DNA of 64,000 nucleotides from an uncultured Spirochaetales bacterium (GTDB taxonomy: Bacteria > UBP6 > UBA1177). The stretch covers positions 62,001 through 126,000 of the forward strand of contig CACYHH010000001.1 of NCBI GenBank assembly GCA_902774115.1, read 5' to 3'. The position numbers and the translations under genes are program-made. Under the pieces are notes generated by a model. The model was given only the letters and a program-made list of their open reading frames with translations. It was not told where the DNA came from and ran no database searches. Positions 39,238 to 44,454 of this stretch are shown piece after piece. The first letter of the stretch is position 1. Every line of letters begins with the position of its first letter.

Positions 39238-40581
39238 ATGAATTTTGCAGAAACTGAAAAAACAGAATTAAAACAAAAACTGACGGATGCTTTTCCGAAA
39301 GAAATCGTAGCTTTTTTGAACACGGACGGAGGAACAATCTATATCGGAGTGAATGACGACGGAAGTGTCTGCGGTGTAACGAATCTCGATGAAATCCTTA
39401 AAAAAATAGCTGACATTTTGGGGGATCAGATTCTACCAGACCCGCGTTCTTATGTAGAACTCGGAACAAAATTTGTTGAGCAGAAACACATTATTGAAAT
39501 AAAAGTTCAGAAAGGTGAAGGACTTTATTACATTAAAAAATACGGCAGGAGTTCGCAGGGATGCTTTATCCGTGTCGGTTCAACAACTCGTTCGATGTCT
39601 GAAGAGCAGATCAATATCGTTCACAACAAATATTTGGATTCAAAAGTCAGAATAACGGAAATTCCTGGCAGAATAAAAAATCCGACTTTTCAGTATTTGA
39701 AGCTGTTGCTTACGGAAAAAGGATTCACCATAAACGAAGCAACTTTTGCGGAGAATTTTCATCTGCTCACAAAAGACGGTGAATACAATAGAATGGCTGA
39801 ACTTTTGTCTGATAAAAATGATGTTTCGATTAAAATCGTCAGATTTAAAGGAAAAAGCAAAGCTGACGGTATCGCGCTCCGTAACGAATACGGTGAAAAA
39901 TGCCTTGTGGTTGCGATGAAACAGGCATTTGATTACTGTGCCGATGTAATCAACGAGACGCACATCAGCTTTACAAAAGGTGTTCGCAACGACCAGCCGC
40001 TTTTTGACAGGAACTCTTTCCGCGAAGTGTGGTTCAATGCCTGTCTCCACAACAACTGGGCGGACGGAACGCCTCAGGCGGTCTATATTTACTCAGACAG
40101 AATGGAGATAATTTCAACAGGAGGGATTCCTTTAAATCTCTCAAAAGAGGATTTTTTCAGAGGTGTTTCCAAGCCTGTGAACGAGGAACTGGCACAAATT
40201 TTTATCCGCCTTGATTTGATGGAGCAGACAGGCTCAGGAATTCCGCTTGTAATAGAGCATTACGGCAAAAATGTCTTCGAGTTTCTGGATTTCTTTTTGC
40301 GCGTAACGATTCCGTTCGCGTTTGAGATTGAAAATGAAGACTTCCCAAAGACTTCCCAAAGACTTCCTAAAGAAATTCCTGAAGTGGCACAAAAAACATT
40401 TGAGGCAATATGTTCTGATCCGTACGCAACCCTTGCAGAACTCAGTTTGAAAGTCGGACTTTCCGATCGTTCTATAAAAACACATATCGCACTACTCAAA
40501 GAAGGTAAAATTATAAGACGTATCGGCGGAAAGACTCATGGTCACTGGGAAATAATTTTTCAAGACGAGGATTCAAAATAA
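39238..40581 (+). CDS. AlbA_2-domain putative DNA-binding protein (RecG-like ATPase family)
   Basis: A 447-residue protein of the AlbA_2 (Schlafen-like) / ATP-dependent DNA helicase RecG-related family. The N-terminal AlbA_2 domain (about 1-120) contains ELKQKLTDAFPKEIVAFLNT and GTIYIGVNDDG. A middle ATPase-like domain (HNNWADGTPQAVYIYSDRMEIIS in parts, IPLVIEHYGKNVFEF) follows, then a winged HTH (about 385-440, LAELSLKVGLSDRSIKTHI). Proteins of this type act as transcriptional regulators or phage-related factors. It ends one base before the YgjP-like gene. No good ribosome site is seen. Confidence 0.85.
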   Translation: MNFAETEKTELKQKLTDAFPKEIVAFLNTDGGTIYIGVNDDGSVCGVTNLDEILKKIADILGDQILPDPRSYVELGTKFVEQKHIIEIKVQKGEGLYYIKKYGRSSQGCFIRVGSTTRSMSEEQINIVHNKYLDSKVRITEIPGRIKNPTFQYLKLLLTEKGFTINEATFAENFHLLTKDGEYNRMAELLSDKNDVSIKIVRFKGKSKADGIALRNEYGEKCLVVAMKQAFDYCADVINETHISFTKGVRNDQPLFDRNSFREVWFNACLHNNWADGTPQAVYIYSDRMEIISTGGIPLNLSKEDFFRGVSKPVNEELAQIFIRLDLMEQTGSGIPLVIEHYGKNVFEFLDFFLRVTIPFAFEIENEDFPKTSQRLPKEIPEVAQKTFEAICSDPYATLAELSLKVGLSDRSIKTHIALLKEGKIIRRIGGKTHGHWEIIFQDEDSK

Positions 40582-41301
40582 ATGCAGCACCAGCTTGAAA
40601 TAAACGGCAGGATCCTGGAATACACTCTTGAGCGGAAAAAGGTGAAAAACCTGAATCTGAGGATAAGGCGGGACGGAAGCGTCTATGTTTCGGCAAACAA
40701 GTCTGTTCCGCTGGATTACATCGAGAATTTTTTGAGGTCGAAATCGGACTTTATTTCCAAGGCGGTCGAGCATTATTCCGAAGTTGTTTCCCGGAAAGAA
40801 TCGCCGAAAAAATATGTCGACGGGGAATCGTTCCGCGTTCTTGGCCATGATCTGAGGCTGAAAGTGATCCGCGGGGCGAGGAACGAGGTCAAAAACGACG
40901 GTGTTTTCATAACTTTGCGGGTAAAAGATCCTTTTGATACGGGTATGAAAGAACGTGTTTTCCGCAAGTGGCTGGCAGCTGTCTGCCGTGAAACTGTGAC
41001 AAAATTATGTGAAGCGGTCTATCCGAAATTCAAGAAATACGGTATAGATTTTCCGGAAATAAAATTCAGAAATATGGTTTCACGCTGGGGAAGCTGCACG
41101 CCGAGAAGAAAAACTCTTACTTTCAGTTACGCTCTCGCCACGGTTCCGGTTTCGTGCATCGAATATGTCGTCATGCACGAATTCACCCATTTTCTGCATC
41201 TGAACCATTCGCCTGATTTTTACCGTCAGCTTGCGGTTTTTATGCCTGACTGGAGAGAGCGGAAAAAACTTCTTGAAAAAAAGTGTGTGAAAATCACTTG
41301 A
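40582..41301 (+). CDS. YgjP/SprT-like metallopeptidase
   Basis: A 239-residue protein of the YgjP-like family (DUF45). The zinc-binding HExxH is H199-E200-H203 (HEFTH) with H209 as third ligand, and the family motif RWGSCTPRR is at about 168-176. The ATG follows the preceding stop directly (TAAATG), so it is translationally coupled to the AlbA_2-HTH gene. It may cleave or process proteins within the cell; the substrate is unknown. Confidence 0.88.
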   Translation: MQHQLEINGRILEYTLERKKVKNLNLRIRRDGSVYVSANKSVPLDYIENFLRSKSDFISKAVEHYSEVVSRKESPKKYVDGESFRVLGHDLRLKVIRGARNEVKNDGVFITLRVKDPFDTGMKERVFRKWLAAVCRETVTKLCEAVYPKFKKYGIDFPEIKFRNMVSRWGSCTPRRKTLTFSYALATVPVSCIEYVVMHEFTHFLHLNHSPDFYRQLAVFMPDWRERKKLLEKKCVKIT

Positions 41302-41325
41302 TTTTTTGGAAAAATACAGCATACT
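41298..41325 (+). promoter_or_regulatory. Possible promoter of the DUF4143 ATPase
   Basis: TTGATT (41,298-41,303) and CATACT (41,320-41,325) are 16 bp apart. The predicted start would fall inside the adjacent 42-bp palindrome, so the palindrome would be at the 5' end of the mRNA and also overlap the initiation region. Confidence 0.4.
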
Positions 41326-41326
41326 G

Positions 41327-41368
41327 TTTTCGATGAAAAAGGGAGTGCATTCCTGTTTTCATCGAAAA
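41327..41368. repeat. 42-bp near-perfect palindrome
   Basis: Two 21-bp arms abut without a spacer at 41,347/41,348. The outer 13 bp (TTTTCGATGAAAA and its complement) match perfectly, and inner positions differ at three places. It sits directly downstream of the putative -10 and 9 bp upstream of the GGTGGAGGT ribosome site of the DUF4143 ATPase. It may be an operator or an mRNA hairpin. Confidence 0.7.
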
Positions 41369-41388
41369 TTCATGCGGTGGAGGTGTTT

Positions 41389-42645
41389 ATGTATAAAAAG
41401 CGCACTGTTGAGCAAACGATTTTGGAAATTGGCGACTCTTTTCCGTGCATTGTTGTTTACGGTCCGCGACAGGTAGGAAAATCTACGACTCTCGACTATA
41501 TTTTCCCCGAAAGCATGAACAGAGTTACTCTTGATGATCTTGCCGACCGGAATCTCGCACGTGAAAATCCTAAACTATTTTTAGAAATGAATCCCTGGCC
41601 TGTAATTATAGATGAAATTCAAAAAGTTCCGGAACTTCTTGATGAGATAAAAATCAAAATTGACGATCAGAGGAGGATCTGGCTCAAAAACGGTGAAGAA
41701 CGGCAGCTGATGTATATTCTCACCGGATCAAACCGCTTTGAACTGCAGGAAGGAATTTCCGAGTCTTTGGCAGGGCGTTGCGGAGTTATAGAAATGTCGT
41801 CGTTTTCACAAATGGAAAAACTGGGAGTCCCTTCAGAACCTTTTACTCCTAAAATTGATGAACTTGTTGCCCGCGCTCAAAAAACAACGGTTCGGTATCG
41901 GACAAGAAGTCAGATTTTTGAAGATATTTTTAACGGCGGAATGCCGGATATTTGCACCGGGGTTTCAAAAAGAGAGGCGTATTTCAAATCCTACGTTAAC
42001 ACTTATATCGAAAAAGATGTGCGTAAACTCATTTCCGCTTCAAACGAAACTCAGTTCAGAAATTTTATTTCCATTGTGGCTCTGCGCACGGCACAGGAAG
42101 TGCATTATGACGAGATTGCCTGTGCTGTCGGAATTGATGTCAAAACATGCAAACGATGGCTTTCGATCCTTGAAACTTCCGGAATAATTTATTTTCTGCA
42201 GCCGTATATGGCAAAAGTTTCAAACCGGATCATAAAAGCTCCCAAGCTTTATTTTACCGATACCGGATTATGCGCTTTCCTTTGCAAATGGCCGGATGCA
42301 AAAATGCTTGAAAATTGTGCTATGAGCGGGGCGTTTTTTGAAACCTTCGTTGTAAGTGAAATATTAAAGAATTTATTTGCATTCAATAAAAATCCGAGGG
42401 ACTATCTTTATTACTACCGCGATATCGACCAGAAAGAAATCGATCTGCTCTATGTGGATGAAACAGGAATTTATCCGATTGAAATAAAAAAAGGAGTCTC
42501 TCCGAAAAATCCCGACAAAAATTTCAAAGTCCTGCAAAAGTACAAAAAAGAAGTAAATCGTGGGCTTGTGATTGACTGCTGTGACAAAATAAGGGCTTTG
42601 AATGAAAATTCATTCTGTTTCCCGGCTTATTTACTTGGAATATAA
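41389..42645 (+). CDS. DUF4143 AAA+ ATPase
   Basis: A 418-residue protein of the ATPase / DUF4143 family. Walker A GPRQVGKS is at 25-32, Walker B PVIIDEIQK at about 75, and the C-terminal DUF4143 nuclease-like domain (about 215-410, YIEKDVRKLISASN ... LYFTDTGLCAFL ... EIDLLYVDETGIYPIEIKKG). The last segment, D..EIK, has the look of a PD-(D/E)xK core. Such genes are mobile and common in genomic islands; they are not classed as a known defence system. It overlaps the phosphatase gene tail by 19 nt (convergent). Confidence 0.9.
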   Translation: MYKKRTVEQTILEIGDSFPCIVVYGPRQVGKSTTLDYIFPESMNRVTLDDLADRNLARENPKLFLEMNPWPVIIDEIQKVPELLDEIKIKIDDQRRIWLKNGEERQLMYILTGSNRFELQEGISESLAGRCGVIEMSSFSQMEKLGVPSEPFTPKIDELVARAQKTTVRYRTRSQIFEDIFNGGMPDICTGVSKREAYFKSYVNTYIEKDVRKLISASNETQFRNFISIVALRTAQEVHYDEIACAVGIDVKTCKRWLSILETSGIIYFLQPYMAKVSNRIIKAPKLYFTDTGLCAFLCKWPDAKMLENCAMSGAFFETFVVSEILKNLFAFNKNPRDYLYYYRDIDQKEIDLLYVDETGIYPIEIKKGVSPKNPDKNFKVLQKYKKEVNRGLVIDCCDKIRALNENSFCFPAYLLGI

Positions 42646-43105: not shown

Positions 43106-43912
43106 TCAATTTAAATTCTTTAAGCATTCCTGTATCTTATCAAATGCGGCTGATGCTTTTATTCCCAGCCAGTTGTCTTTGCCGCTGTTTTCAACCGATT
43201 TCATAAATTCCCTGTCAGAAAAAATTTTTTCTATTCGGCGTCTTACATCATTCATGTCGTTTTCGAACATTTCAGGATTATCCAGAATAAATGTGTGTAA
43301 ACATTGAAGTAGCCTGTTATGCTCTACATAATCTGACAAATAGCAGAGATCAAACAAGTCCTTGACTCTTCCTGAAAATGTTCCGAATTTCACGAGAGCC
43401 CGTAGTTTTTCTGTAAATATCTGTTCTTTTGAATTCATCAGCAAAGTTACCCCTTCATTATCGTGACATACATCAAAACAGTACTCATCCTGCTTGATTT
43501 GTAGATTCTTGTGAACCCCTAAATCCATTTTACTTTTGAAAGAGTTGCCGTTGTTATCTTTGATTAGCACCCAAATGCGTTTGCCACGGTACTCTTGTTG
43601 TGATAATTCTTCTATATCTCCTGAAATTTGGAAGGTTATTCCTTCGATGCAGTTCAGCTTGCTGATAAAATTTCTTATCGCTTCTTTATCTATCGGATAT
43701 TTTATAAAATCGAAGTCTATGTCTCTCGTAGCACGCCTTACATTCCCTGTAATACTTCGCATAACTATGCCGCCTTTTATAGTGACATTGTTATTCATTG
43801 TGCTTTCTGAAATTGCCTTTAGTACAATGTCCTGACAGACTCTCGCTTCCGCCAGTAATTCGCTGTATCCTTCCTCTACATAGAGAGACGCTGCTTTTTC
43901 AAGATTTATCAT
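43106..43912 (-). CDS. abiEii: AbiEii-type nucleotidyltransferase toxin
   Basis: A 268-residue toxin of the AbiE type IV toxin-antitoxin family. Nucleotidyltransferase motifs are visible: K46-G47-G48 (IKGGIVMR), G56 and R60, and the catalytic pair D64/D66 (RDIDFDF). AbiEii toxins are GTP-dependent nucleotidyltransferases that halt growth on phage attack. Its ATG overlaps the AbiEi stop by 1 nt (TAATG). Orientation antitoxin-toxin and tight coupling are typical. Confidence 0.9.
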   Translation of the reverse strand: MINLEKAASLYVEEGYSELLAEARVCQDIVLKAISESTMNNNVTIKGGIVMRSITGNVRRATRDIDFDFIKYPIDKEAIRNFISKLNCIEGITFQISGDIEELSQQEYRGKRIWVLIKDNNGNSFKSKMDLGVHKNLQIKQDEYCFDVCHDNEGVTLLMNSKEQIFTEKLRALVKFGTFSGRVKDLFDLCYLSDYVEHNRLLQCLHTFILDNPEMFENDMNDVRRRIEKIFSDREFMKSVENSGKDNWLGIKASAAFDKIQECLKNLN

Positions 43913-44454
43913 TAATACACCTCGGTTCTTAACGTCTTGATTATTTTATCTTTTTTCGGCATGACTTCTGCATAATCCCGTATTTTTTCCGTGTTTAATT
44001 GCGGGAGGATTCTCCGGTAATTTCCAACAATTTCTTTGTAATAATTAAACGACAGTTTGCTCTTGTATCGCATCAGTTCGATAAGCATTCTTTCACGATC
44101 AAAAATAGGAAGCGTATAACCTTTGTAGTCAATTGTCACGGCACCGATTTTCAACAGTTTTTCGGGTATAAATATTTGTTTTACGCGCGGATCCGTTATC
44201 GGGGCAGCTTCTCTCTTTGTTGCCAGAGTGCATAAATCCGGCACTTCATCCGTTAAGTCATATAAATAAAATGCCGAATCCATTGTTATGATTGTCTTGG
44301 GATACTTGAAAGATAGTAATGCCAATTCCGGTACATATTCATTTTCTGAGTAGATTCCTTTATCTATTCGGAAAAGTTTTCCTTCTTTTACTGTCTGACC
44401 GATGAAGTAATCTGAGCCATATTCTCTTAAACATTCGGCTCTTGTTTTTATCAT
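43912..44454 (-). CDS. abiEi: AbiEi-type antitoxin, transcriptional regulator
   Basis: A 180-residue antitoxin. The N-terminal winged HTH-like part (about 1-45, KEGKLFRIDKGIYSE) and C-terminal AbiEi domain (LALLSFKYPKTIITMDSAFYLYDLT in segments, GYTLPIFDRERMLIEL) match the family. AbiEi normally binds inverted repeats upstream and represses the operon. Such a repeat is present 23 bp from the ATG, overlapping a strong promoter. It neutralises AbiEii without stable binding (type IV). Confidence 0.88.
   Translation of the reverse strand: MIKTRAECLREYGSDYFIGQTVKEGKLFRIDKGIYSENEYVPELALLSFKYPKTIITMDSAFYLYDLTDEVPDLCTLATKREAAPITDPRVKQIFIPEKLLKIGAVTIDYKGYTLPIFDRERMLIELMRYKSKLSFNYYKEIVGNYRRILPQLNTEKIRDYAEVMPKKDKIIKTLRTEVY

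Follow-up and report, generated by a model that had tools for sequence, protein, structure and literature searches.

What does a 42-bp palindrome do in front of a gene for a predicted ATPase-nuclease? The palindrome lies in a window of 64,000 nucleotides (the whole stretch of DNA analysed), after the stop codon of a YgjP metallopeptidase gene (41301) and before the ribosome site GGAGG and ATG of a DUF4143 open reading frame (Table 1). A preliminary description had set a site for a dimeric repressor, a cruciform and an RNA hairpin side by side, with the guess that the ATPase itself may bind. In the reading that we favour, at a probability of roughly 0.7, the palindrome would be an operator at which the DUF4143 protein itself binds, likely repressing transcription of its own gene.

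Table 1. Features of the DUF4143 locus, with positions counted in the window
Feature	Position	Strand	Basis or remark
Putative -35, TTGATT	41298-41303	+	Conserved in orthologues; under the threshold of the consensus scan
Putative -10, CATACT	41320-41325	+	16-bp spacer; under the threshold of the consensus scan
42-bp palindrome, proposed operator	41327-41368	.	Dyad between 41347 and 41348
Left half-site, CGATGAA	41331-41337	+	Half-site table, register; position 1 is 16.5 bp from the dyad
Right half-site, CGATGAA	41358-41364	-	Half-site table, register
Ribosome site, GGAGG	41379-41383	+	Sequence
DUF4143 protein, 418 aa	41389-42645	+	AAA_14 ATPase, winged helix, PD-(D/E)XK-like C-terminal domain; PADLOC PDC-S01
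Stretch with E318, D352, E365, K367	42340-42489	+	Proposed PD-(D/E)XK active site; invariant residues, Can2/Card1 fold
Codons of I346 and D347	42424-42429	+	In the tip loop of hairpin 340-345/350-357; linked by covariation to half-site positions 4 and 1

The palindrome is real as first described: two 21-bp arms (41327-41347 and 41348-41368) meet without a spacer and match at 18 of 21 pairs (86%). No other gapless 21+21 repeat with at least 18 matches occurs in the window, and none arose in 100 dinucleotide-preserving shuffles of it. As RNA, the 42 nt are predicted to fold at -18.8 kcal/mol (z -5.3, or -4.6 with flanks). The half-site alone is uninformative, because a search of the whole window returned 14 matches with 13.2 expected by chance. 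A dyad-symmetric motif of the family (see below), trained without the window gene and its three orthologues, gave the palindrome a score of 31.3, the runner-up place in the 64 kb reaching 10.7.

The placement between a -10 and a ribosome site held in part. The ribosome site does follow the palindrome, but the promoter is weak: TTGATT and CATACT agree with the consensus at 8 of 12 positions by hand count, and a consensus scan at a threshold of 9/12 returned no promoter before the gene. The TTGA and CAT of this putative promoter are kept in orthologues, and TACTGT (41322-41327) offers an alternative putative -10 with an 18-bp spacer. Placed in this way the promoter is weakly supported; in the window and its orthologues the palindrome would directly follow a weak predicted -10 and hence be largely transcribed. 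Since the hairpin lies 26 nt past the YgjP stop, it could also be taken for the intrinsic terminator of that upstream gene. No T run follows the stem, however, a terminator scan called nothing at the palindrome, where the combination of a GC-rich stem and a T run is absent, and across the family the site keeps a fixed position relative to the promoter of the gene that follows, all of which makes a terminator extremely improbable.

An absence of copies elsewhere had been named as a finding that would speak against the palindrome, and copies exist at two levels. The palindrome is strongly conserved before the orthologous gene in four same-genus genomes (G001, G005, G009 and G011; in G005 the contig ends within the DUF4143 gene), and in the wider family the majority of related DUF4143 genes are preceded by sites that have diverged but keep this geometry. 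A covariance model of the palindrome was searched in 31 genomes, with at most 150 candidates scored per genome. The window genome (G000) yielded one site at E<0.01, detected on both strands; weak copies there may escape, because 150 of 1379 candidates were scored. In G005 (locus L082, C21:1-4000), a transporter-like gene separates YgjP from the DUF4143 unit, and an apparent second YgjP 3' end precedes the unit, as if it had been moved by recombination.

The same search found two further strong copies at other loci of relatives. One (G009:C60, L081 2065-2155) retains the palindrome, ribosome site and ATG and then runs into a YbaK-like gene; the other (G002:C68, L083 3640-3771) consists of the palindrome and roughly 14 initial codons of a DUF4143 gene, now before another gene. 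Together with the patchy occurrence of the DUF4143 gene in the genus, these copies could point to a mobile or dispersed repeat (REP/MITE-like), or to the end of a mobile unit carrying the gene. Yet remnants of a DUF4143 start follow both copies, G000 holds a single strong copy among the candidates scored, and the motif is rare downstream of DUF4143 genes (see below). We read both copies as relic operators of lost DUF4143 genes, and the palindrome therefore belongs to DUF4143 genes, living or dead. The many gene-independent copies of a dispersed repeat were not found among the candidates scored, the extra copies having proved to be relics, and a mobile repeat is very improbable. The YbaK-like gene itself (L363-L373, L378) stands in differing gene contexts across many genomes of the genus, often directly after the stop of another gene.

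Beyond the genus, we compared 143 DUF4143 upstream regions, drawn from relatives, viral contigs and named genomes, with 279 control ORFs from the same loci; 10 of 153 genes had been dropped for short upstream DNA or as duplicates. An inverted repeat with a best score of at least 9 was present in 80 of the 143 upstreams and in 32 of the 279 controls (p 3e-21). The sequences of these repeats differ while their register is common. Among 77 sites chosen for pairing, with base conservation no selection criterion, 53 are odd-spaced, show 83-98% pairing at offsets 10-16 from the dyad and have a half-site near CGGCTAA. When arm spacing was varied as a control, enrichment was confined to upstream DNA and to inner gaps no longer than about 25 bp, most of them odd. 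As an operator finder this simple test was rejected and a motif model adopted in its place, because it picked some terminators instead (for example at locus L209).

The resulting dyad-symmetric motif, cross-validated by locus at a score of at least 14, marks 96 of 144 DUF4143 genes and 8 of 257 control upstreams, against 3.7% of DUF4143 gene downstreams and 0.7% of shuffles. When controls were re-scanned with the final motif, 9 of 257 reached 14, six of these being a DUF4143 operator viewed from a divergently transcribed neighbour. The consensus half-site of the family is approximately CGNNTAA, 16 bp from the dyad. Genes whose products are at least 38% identical to the window protein, from many phyla, carry the motif in 89 of 96 cases, those below 38% in 7 of 48. 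On this comparison, the palindrome in the window is one instance of a control site that precedes most genes of one large DUF4143 branch. Of the options first raised, a site for a symmetric DNA-binding protein is thus well supported by the family-wide two-fold motif, whereas a cruciform as the recognised object fails to account for base-specific half-sites. A distant DUF4143 gene of the window genome (L361, G000:C4:25436-27136) has no palindrome; about four direct repeats (AATTTGTATTGATG and variants) precede its start.

The geometry of predicted promoters across the family indicates how such a site might act. In the best promoter-like pair, 52 of the 96 genes have the start of the predicted -10 exactly 12 bp to the left of the dyad; another 11, a group that includes close relatives of the window gene, have it exactly 28 bp to the right. 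Outside the motif, TTGA occurs at dyad-35 in 29 of 96 genes, compared with a mean of 0.45 at other offsets. In the larger group the dyad is close to the predicted start, so that only half of the palindrome would be transcribed; in the smaller group the right arm contains the predicted -35, and transcription is predicted to start downstream of the palindrome. The sites are thus two-fold symmetric and constant in position on the predicted promoters, as expected of an autoregulatory operator. Since the core promoter is covered by the site, repression is the likeliest sign of regulation; in the smaller group the site could also activate from about -41.

These positions bear directly on whether the palindrome works instead as an RNA hairpin in the 5' leader, controlling translation or mRNA stability. 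The strong predicted fold, a predicted start that precedes the palindrome in the window class, and an excess of G.T over A.C mismatches in the selected sites (69:43, p 0.018) would all suit a hairpin. It is nevertheless disfavoured, because 11 of the 96 sites overlap the predicted -35, upstream of the predicted start, and a half-transcribed palindrome, as predicted for the 52 genes, argues the same way. Moreover, an RNA alifold of seven near copies contained no compensatory pair change, G.T and A.C stand at 3:4 at the specificity offsets 13-16, and part of the overall G.T excess may be due to the -10 constraint on the left half-site. Covariation with a hairpin of the nuclease domain (see below) would also be unexpected for an RNA element, and we consider this explanation quite improbable.

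Which protein reads the site was approached through covariation between half-sites and DUF4143 residues. A sliding-window analysis first indicated residues 36-56 and 291-316, and was superseded by an analysis column by column, in which operators were permuted as a control. In 96 protein/operator pairs, four columns (347, 50, 255 and 346) follow operator similarity over and above overall identity (r 0.34 to 0.44), while the largest column value with permuted operators is 0.26; 255 is the only winged-helix column with a covariation signal. By column and base, 347 pairs with half-site position 1, both 50 and 255 with position 2, and 346 with position 4. In the right half, C at position 4 accompanies 43 of 50 K346 genes, 6 of 6 with R346 and 0 of 14 with I346, and A at position 1 is found in 9 of 9 genes with N347.

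Residues 346 and 347 were the only ones put to both a hold-out and a tree test, and both passed. Removing 22 genes at least 90% identical to the training set and one self-duplicate reduced 106 independent genes to 83, of which 30 have the motif and 53 lack it. In this set K/R346 goes with C4 in 97% (n=17) versus 69% otherwise (n=13; p 0.011). For N347 and A1 the figures are 88% (n=8) and, without N347, 18% (n=22; p 0.0006). Both p values come from permutations that ignore kinship; the rule for I/V/L/T346 reached p 0.07 with n=2 only. In a tree from which the six columns 344-349 had been left out, residue 346 changes 15 times, and 10 of these changes share branch and direction with one at position 4 (the null gave a mean of 0.8 and a maximum of 6; p 0.0025), placing 346 first of 265 columns; N347 and A1 change jointly in 6 of 8 cases. 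Residue 50 gave p 0.02 in this test and residue 255 failed it (p 0.49). Exceptions occur on both sides: C is lacking from both halves in 10 of 73 K/R346 tips, and it is present in 12 of the 53 others. The window gene (I346, CGATGAA) and its relatives L055-L057 (K346, CGACCAA) form a natural matched pair. Commonly, Lys or Arg contacts the G opposite C, Asp contacts C and Asn contacts A, and the pattern at 346 and 347 would fit these habits.

Because the half-site changes in step with residues 346 and 347, these data suggest that the DUF4143 protein reads its own operator, and with the hold-out and the tree they favour the initial guess about the ATPase. The main competitor is an operator for some other regulator, either a host protein or a co-travelling repressor, for which there is precedent in the dedicated separate repressors of defence loci described in the available excerpts on RptR (PMC12255303) and CapK/CapS (PMC13373217). 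Against it, the half-sites follow DUF4143 residues in both tests, and an identical half-site class is present in loci of very different hosts. A single host regulator is inadequate, because two DUF4143 genes of one genome, the window gene and L242, have different palindromes. Another regulator is accordingly unlikely.

The proposed reader matches the Pfam families DUF4143 (E 3e-41) and AAA_14 (E 8e-23), both above gathering scores, and the PADLOC model PDC-S01 (E 1.7e-91). An AlphaFold2 model built from 99 sequences is confident (pLDDT 94.7, pTM 0.93). Residues 1-300 of the model form an AAA-type ATPase followed by a winged helix, as in the archaeal ATPases 2qen and 2fna (Z 15.4 and 14.4) and, at Z 12-15 over the whole set, RPP1 and CED-4; they resemble a STAND ATPase of NLR/CED-4 type in shared fold only. 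Residues 276-418, folded alone (pLDDT 86.4), resemble Can2/Card1 and other PD-(D/E)XK nucleases (Z 8.4, rmsd 4.2 over 137 aligned residues; Foldseek E 1e-3). E318, D352, E365 and K367 are invariant in the 99 aligned proteins, and we take them to be the PD-(D/E)XK motif. The modelled protein thus combines the fold of such a nuclease with conserved putative catalytic residues, and residues 346-349 form the loop between strands 340-345 and 350-357, adjoining the proposed catalytic Asp. Nearby, an AbiEi/AbiEii-type pair (PADLOC; 43106-44454, minus strand) and an SLFN_AlbA_2 gene (39238-40581) share the neighbourhood with the DUF4143 gene, in what looks like a small defence cluster.

Taken together, a two-fold assembly of the DUF4143 protein would bind both half-sites, about 33 bp apart, with the hairpin ahead of the catalytic Asp reading positions 4 and 1. 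Lying on the promoter's start region, the operator would let the gene repress its own transcription, keeping a potentially harmful ATPase-nuclease scarce until a trigger releases it, and would travel with its gene. The support is sequence-based: the site is two-fold symmetric, recurs across the family at a fixed position and covaries with the protein, and no second strong copy turned up in G000 among the 150 of 1379 candidates scored. From these we infer binding and its stoichiometry, repression, a trigger, and whatever part the nuclease activity may have. To bind its own promoter with its nuclease active site intact, the protein would require a safeguard, and our guess is an autoinhibited or ATP-gated state. 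A bolder version, possible but doubtful, is that the nuclease domain of a STAND-type ATPase reads a single cognate palindrome on its own promoter through the hairpin next to the active site, the palindrome being both operator and resting dock. The nuclease would then be parked on the palindrome, repressing itself, until infection-driven changes in nucleotides or DNA release it, with expression rising at once.

Comparison with known systems places this proposal. PDC-S01 is reported to rank fourth in abundance among the defence candidates of prokaryotes and to be as yet unvalidated, and its ATPase plus PD-(D/E)XK make-up, given in the excerpts of PMC12988326, agrees with the model match and predicted fold of the window protein; rumen genomes are reported to carry it more often than any other single defence locus (PMC13356809). 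The available portions of these two papers describe no operator, autoregulation or DNA target for PDC-S01, and the accessible parts of the DUF4143 and PDC-S01 literature contain no mention of a DUF4143 operator. With the RptR and CapK/CapS loci, as far as those excerpts go, the window gene shares a symmetric site over the promoter of a defence-type gene; there the repressor is separate, whereas here the proposed reader is the effector itself, with the signal in its nuclease domain. What appears unusual about this proposed auto-operator is precisely that its reader would be the effector's own nuclease domain.

BrxR, CapH and the C proteins of restriction-modification systems provide further autoregulated operators with a separate repressor. 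Self-regulating restriction-modification methyltransferases and toxin-antitoxin modules likewise place a gene product on an inverted repeat of its own promoter. In those, a separate HTH or antitoxin domain reads the DNA, unlike the DUF4143 proteins, in which the best covariation is at a hairpin beside the putative nuclease active site. The CRISPR-associated PD-(D/E)XK nucleases Can2 and Card1 share the fold of residues 276-418; their partner is a CARF domain for cyclic oligoadenylate, that of the window protein a STAND-like ATPase. With 2qen and 2fna (SSO1545) the window protein has the ATPase and winged helix in common, an alignment that spans model residues 1-300 only (chains of 350-352 residues), without the nuclease part.

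We conclude that the DUF4143 palindrome is a real and general feature, best read as an auto-operator. If the resting-dock version were true, residues 346 and 347 would constitute a simple recognition code, allowing several copies per genome without cross-talk. The predicted DNA target and the residue-to-base rule make PDC-S01 directly assayable, and the proposed operator can serve as an annotation marker for the starts of DUF4143 genes and for the relics of lost copies.
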